From: a virus
DNA length: 27,360 bases
Strand: one strand, 5' to 3'
IMG/VR virus record: IMGVR_UViG_3300009155_000206
Coordinates: 1-27,360 of that record
This document shows, piece by piece, positions 6,747 to 23,605 of the stretch. The translations under genes were made by a program, and so were the position numbers. Under the pieces are notes generated by a model that saw only the letters and a list, made by a program, of their open reading frames with translations, was not told the DNA's origin and made no database searches. The stretch's first letter is position 1; the number at the start of each line of letters is the position of its first letter.

Positions 6747-7600
6747 CAGTAGCTATTGGAACTGCGGCAGTAATTGGAGCGGGTGCATCGTATGTTGCAT
6801 CCAGTAATGCTGCGGATGCTGCACAAGAAGCAGCGCAGACTCAGGCAACTGCTCAAGAAAAGGCAACAGCGGCTCAAACAGCGGCTCAAGACCAAGCGAT
6901 CACAGAGCAGCGTCGGCAGTTTGATAAAATACAAGAGCTGCTTTCTCCGTATACACAAGCTGGTCCAGGTGCGCTTCAAGGAATGCAGGGGCTTGCCGGA
7001 CTACGCGGTGCTGGAGAGCAGCAGGCATCAATTGACCAGATTAAGCAGTCTGCTCAGTACCAAGAGTTGGCCCGGCAGGGAGAACAAGGGATCCTTCAGA
7101 ATGCTTCTGCCACTGGTGGTCTTCGAGGAGGAAATGTACAGGCTGCACTAGCTCAATTTCGGCCTTCGCTTCTAAACCAACTTATTGAAAGTCAATATAG
7201 CAAACTGGCTGGATTGACTTCACTAGGACAAGCATCAGCGGCTGGCACAGCGGCGGCTGGGCAGCAGTCAGCCACAAACATTGGCAATCTTTATTCGGCA
7301 CAAGGTGCTACACAGGCCGCTGGATACACAGGAATCGGCCAAGCTCAAGCCGGGGGTATCATTGGAGCTGCAAACGCTCAAGCGCAAGGCACGGCTTCAA
7401 TGATAGGAGGAATTAACTCAGGTATTCAGGGATACGCGATGTTAAATGCCGCAAATGCTCCAAGCATGAATTCTGGAATCGGAACAGGTGGGTTTGCAGG
7501 AACCTATGGGCAGGCTCAGGCCATGTACGGAGGCGCTCCGCTTGGTTATCAAACTCCAATGGGACCCGGGGCTCCTGGTGGATATTACAAAGCTCAATAA
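6734..7600 (+). CDS. P22 gp7-like DNA ejection (injection) protein
   Basis: A strong ribosome binding site (AAAAAGGAGG, ending 6 nt before the ATG) marks the start. The 288-residue product begins with a short hydrophobic helix (WVAVAIGTAAVIGAGASYVA), followed by an Ala/Gln-rich helical stretch. Then come family hallmarks: QRRQFDKIQELLSPYTQAG at about residues 60-78, GILQNASATGGLRGGNVQAA at about residues 119-138, and LAQFRPSLLNQLIESQYSKL after it. In P22, gp7 is carried in the virion and leaves with the DNA to build the channel across the envelope. P22 gp7 is about 229 residues; this one has a longer Gly/Ala-rich C-terminus. It heads a three-gene ejection set. Confidence 0.9.
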   Translation: MAWVAVAIGTAAVIGAGASYVASSNAADAAQEAAQTQATAQEKATAAQTAAQDQAITEQRRQFDKIQELLSPYTQAGPGALQGMQGLAGLRGAGEQQASIDQIKQSAQYQELARQGEQGILQNASATGGLRGGNVQAALAQFRPSLLNQLIESQYSKLAGLTSLGQASAAGTAAAGQQSATNIGNLYSAQGATQAAGYTGIGQAQAGGIIGAANAQAQGTASMIGGINSGIQGYAMLNAANAPSMNSGIGTGGFAGTYGQAQAMYGGAPLGYQTPMGPGAPGGYYKAQ

Positions 7601-9019: not shown

Positions 9020-11038
9020 ATGCCTGAATTTACTCTAGACGTTTACGGCAAAGAGTACGTTATTGACGCACCAGACCAAAAGTCTGCCGTTGATGCTGCT
9101 CTTGGGCATTACAAAACAACGTATGGAGATGCGCAACCTGCCGCAGCAGTTGCTCCCGTGGAGCAGGCTGGAATGCTTCAGCAGCCCATCGAGGTGCCTG
9201 CCGCGCCGCCATCTGAAACCGCACAGATCGCAGGCGCAGCACTGCGAGGCGGCGCTACAATCGGCGCAGGCGCATTGGCAGGGGCAATAGCTGGAGCACC
9301 TTTTGGTGGTGTTGGAGCGATTCCAGGTGCCGCAGCAGGAGCAACGGCAGCGGCATTAACGGGACCAATCCTCGAAGGCATCAATCAAACTTTTGGGACA
9401 AACTACACCAAACCCGATGAGGCGATGCAGCATTTGCTGACATACCTTGGTGTCCCAAAGGCTGAAATGTCATCTGCAAAACTTGCTCAGGCCATGACTG
9501 GGGCTATTGCTGAAACGGCAGCAGGAGTCGGACTCGGTAAAGCTCTGATGGCTGCGGCAAAGCCGTTTTCTACCGGTGCTTTAGTTGGTGAGGCATTGGC
9601 TTCACAGCCCGGACAACAGATGATGGGGGCTGCCGGTGCCGCAGCAGGCACGCAGGCCGCAGAGATGGCCGGCATGGGTATTCCGGGGCAACTTCTGGCA
9701 GGACTTGGCGGTGGGATGCTTGGATCGTTTGCAGGTGCAGAACGGTCAATTGCAGGAGCAACTACACCAAAAGGGCTTCGTGAAGCAGAGCAACTTGGTA
9801 TTGAGCCGCTTACTTCGCAGGCTTTTCCTCCAAAGACTCCTTTGGAAAATGCGCTGGCAAAAGCCAGAGAAATGACTCCGTATGGAACTGGGAGCTTGTT
9901 ACAGAAGCAGGAGGCAAAAAGAATTACAGAGGCAAAAGATTTGCTTCAAGATTTTGGCGCCGACATACCAGGAACAGATTACTTGCCAGAGTTGGCAAAA
10001 CAGTTGACCGACAGACGCAGAAGCATAGTTGATAAATTTTCTAAGATGAAAATGAATGTCATCAACAGCTTGTCTGGAGTTGGAAGACAACCAAATGTTA
10101 ATCACACTGTTCAGGTTGTTGATGACGAGATTAAGCGACTCAGAAGAATTAGTGGCGCTGGATACGACAAGGCTATAGCAGAGCTTGAGTCTTTTGGGGT
10201 GGATGTAATGTATAAAGATCTAAAAGAATTAGAGGCTAGAAGAAAGTTGCTCGGATTGCAGTTTAGGGCTCCAGAACTTGCTACAGTTAAAGATGAAGGC
10301 AAGAAATCCATCGATGCAATCTATGCCGCCTTGAATGAAGACATGGGAAACTTCATCAAATCAGAAGGGACAAGAACAGATTACATAAGATGGAGGATAG
10401 GAAACAGAAATCTGTCTGAGATGGCAGATGAACTAAAAGACAATACTTTAAAGAAAATTTTAAACAGCGAAGATACAACTCCTGAAAAGGTTCGAGAACT
10501 GTTGTTTTCGCAAAACAAAAGCTCAATTCAAAGGCTGTACGACAACCTAGACTCAAATGGCAGAAATACAGCTCGAGCCGCTATTTTAAGGAAAGCCGCA
10601 GATCAAGCTGGTGGGATTGAGGAGTTAGATCCAAACAGGTTTTTGGGCAAACTCAAAAAACTTGAAGACGAGACTGGAATTTTCTTTAAAAAAGAAGAAA
10701 AGCGTCAAGTTGAAGGATTAATGCGAGCTTTATCTTTCACAAAGCGAGCTGGGGAATTTGCTGCAAATCCTCCAACCGGAACACAACTTTCTGCATTTGG
10801 AATGGGAAGTTTTTTAACAAGTATTTTCGGAGGAGTTGCAGGAGTGCTTGCTGCCACAGGTCTGGGCACAGCAGCTACAAGGATCTACGAATCTAAACCA
10901 GTTCGAGAATTGCTCTTGAAGCTTCCATCCATAAAGGCTGGATCTCCTGAAGAAGCATCTACTATGAAACGTCTTGGCGATATTTTAAAAGCTCAAGCAG
11001 CAAAAGTTCCAAATGCACCTCAACAGGAGTCCAAATAA
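9020..11038 (+). CDS. P22 gp16-like DNA ejection protein
   Basis: This 672-residue protein is the third gene of the ejection set, in the place of P22 gene 16 (about 609 residues). It starts 1 nt after the gp20-like stop. The N-terminus (FTLDVYGKEYVIDAPDQKSA) is a short domain seen at the start of many phage structural proteins. Residues 70-115 and 150-240 are Gly/Ala-rich with GxxxG-type spacing, as in membrane-inserting segments. Residues 270-570 are charged and helical. A further hydrophobic stretch lies near residues 590-622. This fits a protein that inserts into the host membrane during genome entry. No lytic transglycosylase motif is visible. The stop overlaps the next ATG by 1 nt (TAATG). 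Confidence 0.8.
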   Translation: MPEFTLDVYGKEYVIDAPDQKSAVDAALGHYKTTYGDAQPAAAVAPVEQAGMLQQPIEVPAAPPSETAQIAGAALRGGATIGAGALAGAIAGAPFGGVGAIPGAAAGATAAALTGPILEGINQTFGTNYTKPDEAMQHLLTYLGVPKAEMSSAKLAQAMTGAIAETAAGVGLGKALMAAAKPFSTGALVGEALASQPGQQMMGAAGAAAGTQAAEMAGMGIPGQLLAGLGGGMLGSFAGAERSIAGATTPKGLREAEQLGIEPLTSQAFPPKTPLENALAKAREMTPYGTGSLLQKQEAKRITEAKDLLQDFGADIPGTDYLPELAKQLTDRRRSIVDKFSKMKMNVINSLSGVGRQPNVNHTVQVVDDEIKRLRRISGAGYDKAIAELESFGVDVMYKDLKELEARRKLLGLQFRAPELATVKDEGKKSIDAIYAALNEDMGNFIKSEGTRTDYIRWRIGNRNLSEMADELKDNTLKKILNSEDTTPEKVRELLFSQNKSSIQRLYDNLDSNGRNTARAAILRKAADQAGGIEELDPNRFLGKLKKLEDETGIFFKKEEKRQVEGLMRALSFTKRAGEFAANPPTGTQLSAFGMGSFLTSIFGGVAGVLAATGLGTAATRIYESKPVRELLLKLPSIKAGSPEEASTMKRLGDILKAQAAKVPNAPQQESK

Positions 11039-11325
11039 TGTCCATTCGCATCACTCCACCGTTCCCGACATTCACAACTCTCGATGGCGGCAATCTCGAG
11101 AACGGCTTCATCTACATCGGGCTCGCAAACTTCAACGCTGAGACGGCCCCTGTGCCGATCTTCTGGGACTCGGCCTGCACGATTACGGCTTCTCAACCGA
11201 TCCGCACCATCAACGGTATGCCGTCACGAGAAGGCGCACCCTCGAACTTCTACACGCTAGCGACATCGTACTCGATGACCGTGCGCGACAGCGCCGGGGG
11301 ACTTGTGTACTCTGCCAACGTATGA
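11038..11325 (+). CDS. Free-standing tailspike head-binding domain protein (95 aa)
   Basis: The whole 95-residue product aligns by eye with the N-terminal head-binding domain of P22 tailspike gp9. FPTFTTLDGGNLENGFIYIG matches the 'ANGKIYIG' region, APVPIFWD the 'NQIPVYIE' region, ITASQPIRTINGMPSREGAP the 'ITQPLIINAAGKI' region, and YSMTVRDSAGGLVYSANV the 'HSMAIYDANGSQVDYIANV' region. In P22 this domain attaches a large glycosidase trimer to the tail. Here the gene stops right after the domain, with no spike body. The frame ends in a clean TGA and no continuation is visible downstream. It may be an adaptor onto which another fibre docks, or a remnant. Confidence 0.85.
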   Translation: MSIRITPPFPTFTTLDGGNLENGFIYIGLANFNAETAPVPIFWDSACTITASQPIRTINGMPSREGAPSNFYTLATSYSMTVRDSAGGLVYSANV

Positions 11326-12787: not shown

Positions 12788-13326
12788 GTGACTTTGAGAA
12801 AGCTTTGAAGTTTGTGCTGGAGCACGAAACCGTCTACGCCAAGGGGCACTACGGTGATATGGACTACGCTGTGGTCGAGAATGAACCCGGTGACTCTGGT
12901 GGGAAGACCAAGTTCGGCTTAGATTCTGCAAGCCATCCAGAGCTTGATCTCGACACACTTACGCTTGAGGAAGCATCACTTGTGTACAAGCGAGAGTACT
13001 GGGAGCGAGCGCACTGCCCACAGTTGCCGTGGCCCCTTTCACAGGTGCAGTTTGATGGGGCGGTAAATACCGGCATCGGTCAGCAGATGAAGTTCTTGCA
13101 GCGGGCCGCTGGCGTTAATCCAGACGGCGCTTGGGGACCAAACACAAGCCGCGCCACAGGGAATATGATCAGTGAGATTGGCCTAAAAGCTTTGTGCATT
13201 GATGTTTGTGACAAGAAGGAAGAGTTCTACAAGAACCTAGTTTCCAAAAAGCCGAATCTAAATCGATTCCTTCGGGGCTGGCTTAACCGCCTAAACGATC
13301 TTCGCAAGGACTGCGGACTCGCGTAA
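12784..13326 (+). CDS. Endolysin, GH108-like muramidase with peptidoglycan-binding region
   Basis: The product has 180 residues. The N-terminus (FEKALKFVLEHE) and NEPGDSGGKTKFGL at residues 33-46 match the GH108 family, in which a glutamate at the first position (here E15) is catalytic and 'NDPxDxGGxTxxGI' is the signature. The spacing between E15 and the NEPGD motif is longer than usual. The C-terminal part (VQFDGAVNTGIGQQMKFLQR, then NPDGAWGPNT) matches the peptidoglycan-binding domain normally found with GH108. There is no signal peptide, so export through the holin pores is expected. The enzyme cuts glycan strands of murein. It is the last gene before a terminator. Confidence 0.87.
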   Translation: MSDFEKALKFVLEHETVYAKGHYGDMDYAVVENEPGDSGGKTKFGLDSASHPELDLDTLTLEEASLVYKREYWERAHCPQLPWPLSQVQFDGAVNTGIGQQMKFLQRAAGVNPDGAWGPNTSRATGNMISEIGLKALCIDVCDKKEEFYKNLVSKKPNLNRFLRGWLNRLNDLRKDCGLA

Positions 13327-13419: not shown

Positions 13420-13722
13420 ATGACAAACCTCCAAATGGATGTTCGCGGTGTCGTTAAGAAGTTCGGTGGCCGAGCGCAGCTTTACAGGAAGTTGTGCGTG
13501 GCGAAAGTCGAGCTAAGTCATCGCACGATAGATAATTGGATTTGTGCTGGGATCATTCCCATGCATCGATTCCTTCAGTTAATGGCCCTCGCAAAAGACG
13601 AGGGGTTTACACTAAACCTCAGAGAACACACAAAAAATGAAAGACCTCACAAACCTGACGGTGCCGGAACTGGTGTCGGAGTTGGAAACGCTGCGAATGA
13701 TGCAGCTAGTATACAGGCTTGA
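13420..13722 (+). CDS. Small HTH DNA-binding protein (Cro/YdaS-like)
   Basis: This is the first gene after the terminator. Residues 9-50 (VRGVVKKFGGRAQLYRKLCV through TIDNWICAGIIPMHRFLQLM) read as a Cro/YdaS-type helix-turn-helix: 'FGG.A.L...L' forms the first helices, TIDNWICAGIIP is the recognition helix and turn, and the family usually has W-x-x-x-G-I-P here. The last 25 residues are Gly/Ala-rich and probably disordered. It may regulate the early block it heads. The 3' end overlaps the next gene by 86 nt. No clear sigma-70 promoter was found in 13380-13419, although TTTTGAGCGTACACT stands just upstream. Confidence 0.65.
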   Translation: MTNLQMDVRGVVKKFGGRAQLYRKLCVAKVELSHRTIDNWICAGIIPMHRFLQLMALAKDEGFTLNLREHTKNERPHKPDGAGTGVGVGNAANDAASIQA

Positions 13723-19474: not shown

Positions 19475-20256
19475 GTGCAAAGAACATGTTTGAACCACCA
19501 AAGCAGCGTCACAATGAGGAAATCGAGGCCGCTATCTCCAATGCACTCACCATCACCAGAAGCAGAGAAGACCGGCGCACCTACCTTGGGGCGTCGAGAT
19601 GGGGGCATCACTGTGAGCGCGCACTCGGATACGAGTTCCATGCCACTCCCAGAGACGACATGTCCAAGCCCCAGTTCAGTGCTAACTTGTACCGCGTATT
19701 CGACATGGGACACGACGGCGAGAGTCGCATGTCCGAGTATATGCGAATGGCGGGGTTTGAGTTGCAGACGGAAAAGCCAGGAGGCGGTCAGATAGGGTTC
19801 TCGGTCTGCGGAGGAAAGCTTGGTGGGCACTGCGACGGCATCGTCCACGGTGGCCCCGGTATTAGCAAGGCGCCGCTTGTCTGGGAGAATAAGGCGCTCA
19901 ACAACAAATCGTGGAGTGATACCAAGGACAAGGGTGTCGCCAAAAGCAAGCCGCTGTACTACGCGCAGATGCAGACCTACATTGCATATCTCGATTTGCA
20001 AGGTTTCCTGTTTACGGCCATGAACCGAGACACTGGGGAGGTCTACGTTGAGTTGGGTGAGCCAGATATGAGGTTGGCTCAGGAGGTCAGCGACAAGGCG
20101 CTGCGCATCATCCAGAGTGAGCACCCAGAGCAGTTGCCGAGGGCGGCGAGTGTAGAAACAGACTGGCAGTGCCGGTTCTGTGACTTCCAGAAGCAGTGTT
20201 GGGGGCGGAAAGAAACGCCAGTCGAGCAGCGTCAGTACTTTAACTACAAAAAATGA
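19471..20256 (+). CDS. PD-(D/E)XK nuclease with Cas4-like Fe-S cysteines
   Basis: The GTG at 19471 overlaps the previous stop (GTGA) and has GGAGGAGGT about 8 nt upstream. The product has 261 residues. H81 (MGHDGE), D122 (GGHCDGI) and E139-x-K141 (WENKAL) give the H...D...ExK active site of the PD-(D/E)XK superfamily, and YYAQMQTYIAYL is the following helix. Four cysteines fit a Cas4/AddB-type cluster: C48 near the N-terminus and C234, C237 and C243 near the end (CRFCDFQKQC). Such enzymes process DNA ends for recombination. It overlaps the primase-helicase start, so the two are coupled. Confidence 0.85.
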   Translation: MSAKNMFEPPKQRHNEEIEAAISNALTITRSREDRRTYLGASRWGHHCERALGYEFHATPRDDMSKPQFSANLYRVFDMGHDGESRMSEYMRMAGFELQTEKPGGGQIGFSVCGGKLGGHCDGIVHGGPGISKAPLVWENKALNNKSWSDTKDKGVAKSKPLYYAQMQTYIAYLDLQGFLFTAMNRDTGEVYVELGEPDMRLAQEVSDKALRIIQSEHPEQLPRAASVETDWQCRFCDFQKQCWGRKETPVEQRQYFNYKK

Positions 20257-22697
20257 TGACAGAGAAAAATGAAAGCCTGGTCCACTTTGATGAGGCCCAG
20301 GTCAGGGAACACTTGTCTTTTATCTTCGGGGCTGTCGACTTTCAGCCCGGAGCATATATTTGTCTCCGAGGGATCGGAGAGAAGGGAACAGCGCAGGAAG
20401 GCACGTTCAGGGAAGAGTTTTTCTTTGAGCCGGCAGTGGAACAGAACTGGATGAATTCAGCCGTAGAGCACTGCCAACGCTGGGGACAGCATGCCGTGGC
20501 CTCGTTCATTGTGCCGTGCGTATTGAAAGCACCCAAGGCAACGTCTTTAAATGTCAGCCAGTTTACCACAGTTGTTGCGGACTTTGATTCTGGTAACACA
20601 GATGAGCGGATCGCTTGGGTGGCGGAACACATTGGAATGCCGGATTTGGTGGTCGAGTCTGGTGGAACTACCGAGGCCGGAACGCCAAAGCGGCATGCCT
20701 GGTGGAAGATTGAACCCACTGCTGATATTGAGGGCGTCATCAATCTGCGCCACGCAATTGCCGAGAAGTCCGGTGGGGATTTGATGCTGGGGCGGGGTGT
20801 GAAGGCCAATCCATTTGGCCGTTCTCACCAGCCAGTAAGAATCGCCGGCACAGTACACGGCAAGGGCGGTACGGCGAAGCCGTGCCGGTTTGAGTGGAGT
20901 GGGGAGATAACTGGAGACTGTCTGCACACTGACTTTGCCGACAAGGTTAAGGAGGTTCAGCCAGCTCCGTGGGCAACGAGGACAGTGATGTCCCTTGGGG
21001 ACGGGAATAACGTGATTCGGGGACTCTTTGGGGAGGATAGCACGAACTCAGGGGAGGACTTTGAGCCGGTGGAACTGAATAGGGATGTTCATGCCGGCGG
21101 GGACACAGTCACTCGCTTCGGAGAGTTTAACCGGGTTGCCGGGCACTACATCCACTGTGTGCGGCGCGGGGACATGGACAAGGCAGAAGCCTTTGAGGCA
21201 TTGAGTGGGTGGGTGAGCGCCCACATGAAACCAGCATGGCCTGAGGCGCGAGTGAGGACAGAGTGGGAGGCCCTGTGCCGTCAGGACGTGTCCTCGAAGG
21301 GTGCTTTTACAGAGGAAAAATCGGGGACACACTCGGGGACAGGGGCGCTGCCAGTGGGGGAGAACGGTTTGCTAGCGTGGAGTGCCCACCGGTGGATCAC
21401 CGACCCAGTTCCGGTACACGAGGAACTGGTAGAGGGTTTGGTGCTCAAGGGTGAGCCGCATCTGTTTGTGGGTGAGGGTGGATCGGGAAAGACGTTTCTT
21501 GTGGCAGATCTGGCGCTGAAGGTGGCGGCCTGGAACGAGGCCAAGGACTATTTCTGGTGCGGTCAGAAGGTCCGCGCCGGTGGGACCGCTGTGTTGATTC
21601 TGTGTGAGGATAGCCAGACCGAGATGCATATCCGGATCAAGCAACTCGATCAGGGGGGACTGATCAATCAGGCCGGTGACCGATTGATAGTACTACCAAT
21701 GACCAACATTGGGGGTGCGTTTCCGCTGACCCAGCGGAACTCGAAGACCGGTGAATCGGTTACATCAGACCGCTGGCGGTCCATGCTGGATCTGATGAAG
21801 GCGCTCCCGGAGCCGCCGGTTCTGGTGGCGATTGATACGCTTAACAGTGTGTCGCACGGGGACGAGAACTCGAATGTCGTCATCGCCGAGATGATGCGGG
21901 AGGCCCACCGCGTTTGCGGGGAGATGGGAGCGGCTTTGCTGATTAACCACCACATCCGCAAGTCAAACGAGCCTTTAAGATCTCTGGAAGAATTACGCAG
22001 TGCGATCCGTGGAGCGTCAGCGATTCCCTCGTATTTCCGCATCAACTTTGGGATGTTTCATGCAAGCGATTACGAGCGGCGCATGAAAGCGATGAGCATG
22101 ACTCCAAAACGGGGCGCAATGTGGAAGTTCGGAGTCGTAAAAGCGAACATTCATGGGCTCTTGCAGGGCGAGCGTACTCTGTTGCGTAATGGGATCGGCC
22201 TCTTGGAGGACATTACCGTTAACGACTCGTATGCCGCTGTGAACGTGTCTGAGCGTGTGGCTTGGATGGTTTACGCCATTCAGCAGGCGGCCTCGGCGCT
22301 GCATCCGTACGCTGTGGGTGGGAAGAATGCCGCCAACGGTCTCTATAAGCGCAGGAATGAGCTGCCACAGATCTTAAGGGGAGTAGGCTGGCGGGAGTTC
22401 GGGAACCTGGTTGAGGAAGCATTGGTCAAGGGACTGCTAGTGCCGTGTGCGGTGCGCGGATCAAAATCGAAGACGTATTTGGATGTACCGGGTGGGGTGT
22501 TGTCCCAGGACGAAGCAGGTGTAACGATAGCCTCTGGGTCGTATAACACGGCCCCAGAATGGGAGGATTTTTACTTCGATGCGGACTCCGGCGAGGTAGT
22601 TTTGGCCGCTAAAAGCAACGCTTGGAACGCGCAGTTTCAACGTACTGTGCCGCCCATGGGTGGCCCAAAGAGAAAAAGTGAGGATTTGGACCCATAG
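20253..22697 (+). CDS. Primase-helicase: N-terminal AEP-like primase fused to RepA-type hexameric helicase
   Basis: The product has 814 residues. The N-terminal 210 residues look like an archaeo-eukaryotic-type primase: ADFDSG with D110 and D112 as metal ligands, RHAWWK at residues 147-152, and QPVRIAGTVHGKGG at residues 193-206 are the expected spaced motifs. A linker of about 190 residues follows. The C-terminal part is a RecA-fold RepA/AAA_25-type helicase: Walker A GEGGSGKT at residues 407-414, Walker B VLVAIDTL at residues 523-530, and INHH at about residues 557-560. The RepA part is followed by a winged-helix-like end. It should open and prime the origin, which may lie immediately downstream. 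No other replicative polymerase is in the window. Confidence 0.88.
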   Translation: MMTEKNESLVHFDEAQVREHLSFIFGAVDFQPGAYICLRGIGEKGTAQEGTFREEFFFEPAVEQNWMNSAVEHCQRWGQHAVASFIVPCVLKAPKATSLNVSQFTTVVADFDSGNTDERIAWVAEHIGMPDLVVESGGTTEAGTPKRHAWWKIEPTADIEGVINLRHAIAEKSGGDLMLGRGVKANPFGRSHQPVRIAGTVHGKGGTAKPCRFEWSGEITGDCLHTDFADKVKEVQPAPWATRTVMSLGDGNNVIRGLFGEDSTNSGEDFEPVELNRDVHAGGDTVTRFGEFNRVAGHYIHCVRRGDMDKAEAFEALSGWVSAHMKPAWPEARVRTEWEALCRQDVSSKGAFTEEKSGTHSGTGALPVGENGLLAWSAHRWITDPVPVHEELVEGLVLKGEPHLFVGEGGSGKTFLVADLALKVAAWNEAKDYFWCGQKVRAGGTAVLILCEDSQTEMHIRIKQLDQGGLINQAGDRLIVLPMTNIGGAFPLTQRNSKTGESVTSDRWRSMLDLMKALPEPPVLVAIDTLNSVSHGDENSNVVIAEMMREAHRVCGEMGAALLINHHIRKSNEPLRSLEELRSAIRGASAIPSYFRINFGMFHASDYERRMKAMSMTPKRGAMWKFGVVKANIHGLLQGERTLLRNGIGLLEDITVNDSYAAVNVSERVAWMVYAIQQAASALHPYAVGGKNAANGLYKRRNELPQILRGVGWREFGNLVEEALVKGLLVPCAVRGSKSKTYLDVPGGVLSQDEAGVTIASGSYNTAPEWEDFYFDADSGEVVLAAKSNAWNAQFQRTVPPMGGPKRKSEDLDP

Positions 22698-23068
22698 GCC
22701 AAGAAAGGGACACGAGGACACGCCGCGTCAACAGAGTAAGCGTAATGTGCGTGTCCTCAGGGGACATGGAAAAGGACACGCAAAAGTGCGTAGAAAATGC
22801 GCGTGTCCTCAAATGCGTTTTTTGGGGGGTCTCGGGGACGGGCTTAAGTTGTTGAAAATTCAAACTTTACGCGATTTGAGGACACGGGGACTATATATAG
22901 GGAATAGGGATAAGTCCCCTAGTTCCCGTATCCTCATATATTCGGATACCCTTAACCGCTAACGCTAGGGTATCCGTATGAGGACCGTGAACGCTTCGCT
23001 TCCTTGCTATATTTTGCGACGGTGCTCAAAGTTTACAAAAAACAGCGTATACGCAGAAAAGAAGTACA
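22698..23068. repeat. Iteron-like repeats, candidate replication origin
   Basis: No gene is visible in these 371 nt. The 7-mer GGACACG occurs exactly four times on the plus strand (22708, 22716, 22774, 22880), and its complement CGTGTCC occurs twice (22750, 22802). The longer GAGGACACGC is present at 22714 and in inverted form at 22749 and 22801. A 16-nt unit (22744 and 22796, 15/16 identical) repeats 52 bp apart. Further right are an inverted repeat GGGGACT/AGTCCCC (22886-22919) around an AT-rich core, a perfect 10-bp inverted repeat CGGATACCCT/AGGGTATCCG (22943-22976), and the palindrome GCGTATACGC (23045-23054). The location after a primase-helicase fits an origin. Confidence 0.65.
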
Positions 23069-23605
23069 ATGAAAAAACAGATCACATTGAGCGAGGAGTG
23101 TAGCGACGGCACCGGTGAGTTGCTCGTTCGGCTGAGTGTGCGGGGAGAGCCCAAGAGCCAGCCGCGTCCGCGCTTTGTAAAAGGCCGTGTAATCTCAAAT
23201 ACCAGCCCAGCAGTGTCGTCATGGCAGTCGGCAGTGCAGAGGGCCGCTAGTGAGGCTTTGTGTGCGATTGAGCGGGGGTTGCTGGACAAGGCGACAGCCT
23301 TGAGAGTGGATGTGACGTTCTTCTTCCCGACGAAGAAGCCTGACCGCTGGGGCAAACCGCACACCCAGAAGCCTGACCGGGACAACTGCGACAAGCTGAT
23401 CTTGGACGAATGCACCAAGGTTGGACTCTTCGGTGGGGACGACTGCCGGGTATCCGCCGGCATGATCAGGAAGTACTGGTGCCGTGTTGGTGGTGAGGGA
23501 GCCGTCGTAGAGGTGTCGATAGACGCCTCAGGAGCCCCGTGGGAGGGTATGGACTCGACTTCGAGCATGACCACAGCCGACGAGGCTCCCGATTGGCTAG
23601 GATAG
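23069..23605 (+). CDS. RusA-like Holliday junction resolvase
   Basis: The product has 178 residues, longer than E. coli RusA (120) by extra ends. The N-terminal LLVRLSVRGEPKSQPRPRFV gives the 'P.SK.R.R' strand of the family. KPDRDNCDKLILD at residues 101-113 and FGGDDCRV at residues 121-128 carry the acidic residues equivalent to the metal-binding aspartates of RusA (D103, D105, D124/D125). The enzyme cuts four-way junctions made during recombination or replication. The C-terminal 25 residues are unmatched and probably disordered. It closes the plus-strand replication block, and its end overlaps a minus-strand gene by 9 nt. Confidence 0.88.
   Translation: MKKQITLSEECSDGTGELLVRLSVRGEPKSQPRPRFVKGRVISNTSPAVSSWQSAVQRAASEALCAIERGLLDKATALRVDVTFFFPTKKPDRWGKPHTQKPDRDNCDKLILDECTKVGLFGGDDCRVSAGMIRKYWCRVGGEGAVVEVSIDASGAPWEGMDSTSSMTTADEAPDWLG

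Follow-up and report, generated by a model that had tools for sequence, protein, structure and literature searches.

The intergenic block at positions 22698–23068 of the viral DNA analyzed here (IMG/VR record IMGVR_UViG_3300009155_000206, 27,360 nucleotides; this whole stretch is referred to as the window) is very probably the replication origin of a bacteriophage that is P22-like in its head closure. It would provide binding sites for an iteron-bound initiator, a point of entry for a helicase and a starting place for a primase, with binding, melting and priming as the presumed activities. Two observations favor this reading. First, an array of short repeats follows genes of one primase-helicase family across loci, despite changes in the repeat word. 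Second, a dyad downstream of the array is kept by compensatory changes. An origin at this position had been suggested in a preliminary description made from the letters of the window, and the comparative evidence supports it, insofar as origin activity can be predicted from sequence. To our knowledge, phage origins are rarely known outside of a few models.

Organization of the intergenic block

The heptamer GGACACG is present in six exact copies, starting at 22708, 22716, 22750 (minus strand), 22774, 22802 (minus strand) and 22880, an orientation pattern of ++-+-+. This group of six within 22708–22886, in both orientations, had been recognized in the preliminary description and is well supported: the maximum number of copies of any 7-mer per 200 bp in 60 second-order Markov surrogates is three (56 surrogates) or four (four surrogates) and never more, and the GGACACG block, with six copies within 200 bp, is the densest 7-mer cluster in positions 1001–27360. 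The heptamer occurs 11 times in the window, six of them in the block, compared with a mean of 3.1 and a maximum of 10 in shuffled sequences, none of 100 reaching 11. The densest 7-mer repeats of the window as a whole are collagen-like Gly-X-Thr repeats at positions 1–430, in the first, truncated ORF, a probable tail protein.

The full iteron consensus, obtained from sites collected in relatives, is TTYGAGGACRCG. Iteron 1 (22708–22714) and iteron 4 (22774–22780) are plus-strand copies of GGACACG identified by exact motif count. Iteron 2 (GAGGACACG, 22714–22722, plus strand), iteron 3 (GAGGACACG, 22750–22758, minus strand) and iteron 5 (TTTGAGGACACG, 22802–22810, minus strand) are identified both by motif count and by the sites collected in relatives, and the terminal iteron (ATTTGAGGACACG, 22878–22886, plus strand), for which alignment provides further evidence, is the best conserved copy. 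A degenerate iteron (ATGAGGACCG, 22980–22986, plus strand), identified from the collected sites, lies inside the right arm of the dyad H2 described below. A 16-nt unit, AATG[T/C]GCGTGTCCTCA, located at 22744 and 22796, had been reported as a repeat 52 bp apart; the spacing is correct, but the two copies are 15/16 identical rather than exact.

Between the array and the terminal iteron is an AT-rich segment (22836–22877), a candidate melting segment distinguished by its composition and by a spacing that is conserved in the alignment. The AT-rich core proposed earlier is modest, with 62% AT at 22836–22877 and 67% at 22888–22905, compared with 48% for the whole window. At 22845–22857 on the minus strand there is an IHF-like box, TTTCAACAACTTA (plus strand TAAGTTGTTGAAA), at which IHF may act. 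The form TAAGTYRTTG is common to the window, clades B and C (see below), Rhizobium phage RHph_Y3_1 and Azospirillum, and its minus-strand reading has a single mismatch to the IHF consensus WATCAANNNNTTR in the window and none in clade C locus L073. Matches to this consensus with no more than one mismatch are not rare in 350 bp, and the weight of the box lies in its recurrent place and orientation, not in its score. To the right of the terminal iteron is an AT palindrome, CTATATATAG (22891–22900), evident in the sequence and also present as CTAT..ATAG forms in clades B and C.

Inverted repeats had also been placed after the array, and two perfect ones, GGGGACT/AGTCCCC and CGGATACCC/GGGTATCCG, are indeed present. 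The first of these (22886–22892/22913–22919) is an alternative pairing that overlaps dyad H1 (GGGAA-T-AGGG ... CCCTA-G-TTCCC, 22900–22927), seen in the sequence and the alignment, in which paired changes (GGGG with CCCC, and T-A to A-T in two sequences) were noted by eye and are uncounted. The second forms the arms (22943–22951/22968–22976) of dyad H2 (22931–22984), and these are extended by TCCTCATA/TATGAGGA (22931–22938/22977–22984) to give a stem of 8 + 10 bp, interrupted by a 4-nt bulge, and a loop containing an invariant CGCTWACGCT. When the pairs of this named structure were counted in an alignment of 11 distinct clade-A sequences, 99.5% of cells were found in standard pairs and two-sided changes in 6 of 18 pairs, a number reached by none of 500 shuffles and compared with 0–1 for slid versions of the structure. 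One-sided changes are nearly absent, and the lone U-G cell comes from a sequence (L012) in which the alignment is shifted. A hairpin or palindrome in the DNA would account for this pattern no less well than an RNA structure, and H2 is possibly an ssi-like (single-strand initiation) hairpin.

Two other interpretations of sequences within the block were rejected. H2 is not an intrinsic terminator, as no T run follows it; a weak terminator-like site is present at 22799–22818, away from H2. An ORF at 22660–22962 that overlaps the block has no conserved counterpart in relatives and is not regarded as a gene; the intergenic limits of 22698–23068 are correct.

The primase-helicase and a proposed course of initiation

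The gene immediately to the left of the block (20253–22697, plus strand) codes for an 814-residue protein that was analyzed using Pfam, phmmer, a structure model, Foldseek and VIA. There are three parts: an AEP primase domain (residues ~10–235), a RepA-like AAA_25 helicase domain (375–572) and a C-terminal segment that is conserved in relatives. The helicase domain matches Pfam AAA_25 (E 9.6e-27) and, weakly, RSF1010 RepA (1g8y; phmmer E 1.4e-4, with a profile giving only E 0.23). A model of residues 1–372 built with 17 aligned sequences has a pLDDT of 77 (a single-sequence prediction reaches only 34), and its closest fold is that of the cyanophage S-2L PrimPol (6zp9; Foldseek E 4e-8, VIA Z 20.5), followed by RSF1010 RepB′ (3h20/3h25; Foldseek E 7e-7 and 6e-6, VIA Z 15.7 and 15.4); the matches to further AEP enzymes rank lower. 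The AEP-like motifs VADFD, SGG...H and RIAGTxHGK are conserved. The Pfam match, the RepA match and the AEP fold agree, and the prior assignment of this protein as an AEP primase fused to a RepA-type helicase is confirmed. Three attributes of iteron origins are found together here: clustered copies of a short motif in an intergenic region, adjacency to an initiator/helicase gene, and an AT-rich segment to melt, albeit one that is modestly enriched (62% compared with 48% AT).

The gene to the right of the block (23069–23605, plus strand) codes for a RusA-like Holliday junction resolvase, which adjoins the block in clades A and B. Other genes in the window code for a glycosyl hydrolase 108/peptidoglycan-binding protein, the head closure protein Hc3, a DNA transfer protein, a Sak4-like annealing protein and a Cas4-domain exonuclease. 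Salmonella P22-like phages, as well as phages of Vibrio and Pseudomonas, have relatives of the head-closure protein, and from this set of virion and phage genes, including the P22-like head closure, we conclude that the virus is a bacteriophage. Searches of the window and three related records for DNA polymerases of families A, B and C gave nothing, so it likely uses a host DNA polymerase.

We propose the following course of initiation. A phage-coded initiator would bind the TTYGAGGACRCG iterons, and would most likely be the primase-helicase itself, acting through its C-terminal part, or else a small partner. Assignment of iteron binding to the C-terminal region is weak, because this region is conserved across different iteron words and in the array-less Wolbachia WO phages. 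Host IHF could possibly assist at the TAAGTYRTTG box, and the AT segment, which separates the array from the terminal iteron, would open. The RepA-like hexameric helicase domain would then enter, and the fused AEP domain, with its fold near that of RSF1010 RepB′, would prime first at the exposed H2 (and H1), a host DNA polymerase presumably extending the primer. A small protein encoded at 13420–13722 has a weak match, below the cutoff, to a carph-isopro domain and is possibly a DNA-binding partner.

Conservation of the layout among phages and prophages

Scans of viral contigs revealed 13 relatives with the full block, referred to as clade A, whose primase-helicases are 64–98% identical to that of the window; a near-identity DNA search of cultured phages gave no match. 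In the closer relatives the intergenic blocks align from the iterons through the hairpins, and the iteron words are unchanged though the spacers diverge. In two relatives at 64–65% identity the spacers have diverged and the array is enlarged to ~10 copies, such that copy number ranges from 6 to ~10. Variation of this kind is what might be seen if the array were a functionless repeat expansion, simply mutational noise beside a fast-evolving gene end, but the identity of the iteron words despite spacer divergence, the paired changes that preserve H2, and the recurrence of the same architecture with different words in many loci make this barely credible, and we retain the origin reading.

GAGGACACG was also counted in three larger related contigs. 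There are 9, 5 and 3 copies in contigs of 40.4, 37.0 and 46.7 kb, respectively, of which 7 of 9, 4 of 5 and 3 of 3 lie within the block or at its edge; the remainder are one inside the primase gene (two contigs) and one in or near rusA (one contig). The motif is thus nearly confined to the block, and the even spread over the genome that the preliminary description gave as grounds for refuting an origin is not seen. In the window, a single minus-strand GAGGACACG is located within the primase-helicase gene (21287–21295), and is found at the same place in most clade-A relatives, where it may reflect only conserved codons. The three contigs in which the motif was counted (G001, G002 and G003) carry terminal direct repeats of 119–127 bp, which suggests that they are circular (complete) assemblies. 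The preliminary description also anticipated a switch in GC skew at the block, but the skew does not mark the site. In the window's clade the skew rises almost monotonically with one-directional genes, and in clade B the minimum falls at a switch in gene direction ~1.1 kb from the block; because skew follows gene direction, it is uninformative as an origin marker.

A scan with a DNA pattern yielded two contigs of the clade B/C type that had been missed by the protein scan, and further members were found later. Their primase-helicases are divergent (37–39% identity in the N-terminal part) and, unlike in clade A, the block is located ~1.5–2 kb past the primase-helicase gene. The iteron word is the same as in the window and rusA is just after the block (shown for clade B). 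The block ends with GTAAGTCGTTG, the terminal iteron, CTAT..ATAG, a minus-orientation iteron and then a hairpin, which in clade C is GGCACACC-CATGCTTCGCA-GGTGTGCC; iterons, box, terminal iteron and a hairpin are all retained. Just past the primase-helicase gene in these clades (L068, L072–L074) is a gene for a small basic protein (GRNRLYRWVKK-type), a candidate DNA-binding partner.

The same layout is present with other repeat words. In Rhizobium phage RHph_Y3_1 (word GGGAACG), where a Toprim-type primase is joined to a related helicase, there are nine GTTCCCA/TGGGAAC copies in 187 bp directly 3′ of the annotated DNA primase/helicase gene (L067 7065–7253, corresponding to about 12936–13124 of MN988490). 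This is the best such cluster in that genome, it has the box TTAAGTCATTGAAAA, and the gene that follows it is an unrelated hypothetical one; the array is probably an unannotated origin. At an Azospirillum oryzae plasmid or prophage locus (L089 3631–3980, and L092), six copies of ATCCCCG are located 3′ of a RepA-like primase-helicase gene, together with TAAGTCGTTGATC, TAAGTCGTTG and a hairpin, GATGAAGGCATC...GATGCCTTCATC, with a stem of 12–14 bp. Arrays are also found past the helicase gene in Rhodoferax phage P26218 and podovirus ctfPj964, the latter (L088) having ten copies of ACTCACA at 7218–7454, past a repA-like gene, and fifteen of GGACAGA at 10902–11148, across a predicted pentapeptide-repeat gene. 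Iteron words such as CGTTCCC, CCGGGAA and CATTTCC are shared among prophages of Burkholderiales, Rhizobiales and others (L101–L119, L141–L200), where they lie 3′ of the same helicase family and the hairpin often embeds the core of an iteron (e.g. GGTGAGCATTGGGAATGCTCACC). Not every relative has the layout, common though it is: there is no array near the related helicase gene in Wolbachia WO phages or mycobacteriophage Gadjet. Among matches in a plasmid collection, Azospirillum has its array, Agarilytica has only three exact copies by a strict count, and Shinella has no clear array.

The association was then quantified across the helicase family. Scanning bacterial genomes with the full protein alignment gave no relatives, and an alignment of the helicase gave 31 bacterial loci along with 80 viral loci; the 97 with distinct 3′ sequence were counted. 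An array was scored wherever the 600 bp following the gene contained at least five copies of any one 7-mer inside a 250-bp span. By this definition 62 of the 97 loci have one, compared with 6 of 619 control tiles taken from these loci, and with at least six copies the numbers are 52 and 5; about a third of the related loci are without such an array. A relaxed version of the box is found at 21 loci compared with 9 of the 619 tiles. The 97 loci are phylogenetically non-independent, with about a dozen different repeat words among them, and the word varies with lineage while the link to the primase-helicase gene stays. A set of 42 representative blocks was chosen from the result of this test, such that its counts are descriptive: orientation is mixed in 37 of them, and an inverted repeat with a stem of at least 8 is present at the 3′ side of 19, compared with 11 of 186 control pieces.

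These comparisons bear on two further explanations. The iterons could be operators of a phage transcription regulator for rusA and later genes, with the hairpins acting in a 5′ leader RNA. In favor of this, rusA directly follows the block in clades A and B, inverted or alternating sites are common among operators, and an RNA hairpin would also suit the compensatory changes. However, it seems improbable that this is their role. First, no sigma-70-like promoter was found in the block and an Rfam search of it gave no match. Second, it is the primase-helicase gene that precedes the array in RHph_Y3_1, in Azospirillum and at most of the 97 loci, and the next gene in RHph_Y3_1 is an unrelated hypothetical. 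Third, the link to the helicase gene is constant while the repeat word shifts by lineage. A partition (parS-like) or packaging site would similarly have clustered inverted and direct repeats, but is very unlikely given that the array is tied to a replicative helicase gene, that a parS site would not be expected to have the AT segment, the box or covarying hairpins, and that there is no ParB-like gene among the subset of window proteins examined.

A possible origin class and its relation to known systems

With the block taken as an origin, we are inclined to regard it as a member of an undescribed and widespread class of phage and prophage origins tied to RepA-like primase-helicases. These would share one layout (alternating iterons, TAAGTYRTTG box, AT segment, terminal iteron and hairpin), with the iteron word replaced in each lineage to give a private origin code; in the window's clade, a single AEP-RepA protein would combine the helicase and primase of RSF1010 and would act on iterons together with an ssi-like hairpin. 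No paper on this layout for RepA-like phage primase-helicases was found in the openly accessible literature, and its novelty is provisional. The layout offers a sequence rule by which origins could be located in environmental phages and prophages, beside genes for RepA-like primase-helicases. It makes co-evolution of initiators and iterons testable over many natural pairs, and it unites, within phages, traits of IncQ plasmids, PICI satellites and pRN1-type AEP replicons.

RSF1010 relies on RepC as the iteron-binding protein, RepA as the unwinding helicase and RepB′ as the primase that starts at ssi hairpins (PMC4234260, PMC4434180). The phage system resembles RSF1010 (IncQ) oriV in several respects. 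First, there is a RepA-type hexameric helicase (AAA_25; 1g8y at E 1.4e-4, profile E 0.23). Second, the AEP primase has a RepB′-type fold, notwithstanding the closer match of S-2L PrimPol (Z 20.5). Third, there are iterons and hairpin sites, the likeness being one of layout; the covarying dyad H2 and dyad H1 of the phage block are candidate counterparts of ssiA and ssiB, which are present one per strand in oriV. Finally, no DNA polymerase family was found in the phage records searched. It differs in that primase and helicase are one protein, the iterons are short and in both orientations, and the block is in a phage; the RepC family, the separate iteron binder of RSF1010, has no match among the window proteins scanned (a subset of ORFs).

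In PICI elements the origin follows rep and has an AT region placed between two sets of iterons (PMC6092414). As in PICI/SaPI and P4-type origins (PMC6092414, PMC7581432), the phage array is directly 3′ of an initiator helicase gene and, as in the PICI/SaPI type, there are iterons on both sides of the AT segment (the array at 22708–22810, and 22878–22886 with the degenerate copy at 22980–22986); these phages appear to provide one more instance of such an arrangement. However, the phage helicase is RepA-like (AAA_25), the block has additional conserved hairpins and the TAAGTYRTTG box, and the window contains virion genes (head closure Hc3, DNA transfer protein), unlike a PICI satellite.

A stem-loop located 3′ of the AEP primase-helicase gene is required in pRN1, and Bordetella phage BIP-1 has a similar one (PMC4234260). 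The phage described here shares with these the fusion of an AEP primase to a helicase and a stem-loop (essential or proposed) just 3′ of the gene, with structure conserved more than sequence, but pRN1 has an SF3 helicase and no iterons, in contrast to the AAA_25 helicase and strong iteron array of the phage. The putative SCCmec Cch2/CCPol-MP origin (PMC7581432) differs in having separate proteins, another helicase family and a different repeat, but likewise has short and inverted repeats 3′ of the helicase gene; there, the Cch2 helicase binds its repeats through its C-terminal domain and the primase-polymerase CCPol-MP starts at the repeats (PMC7581432).
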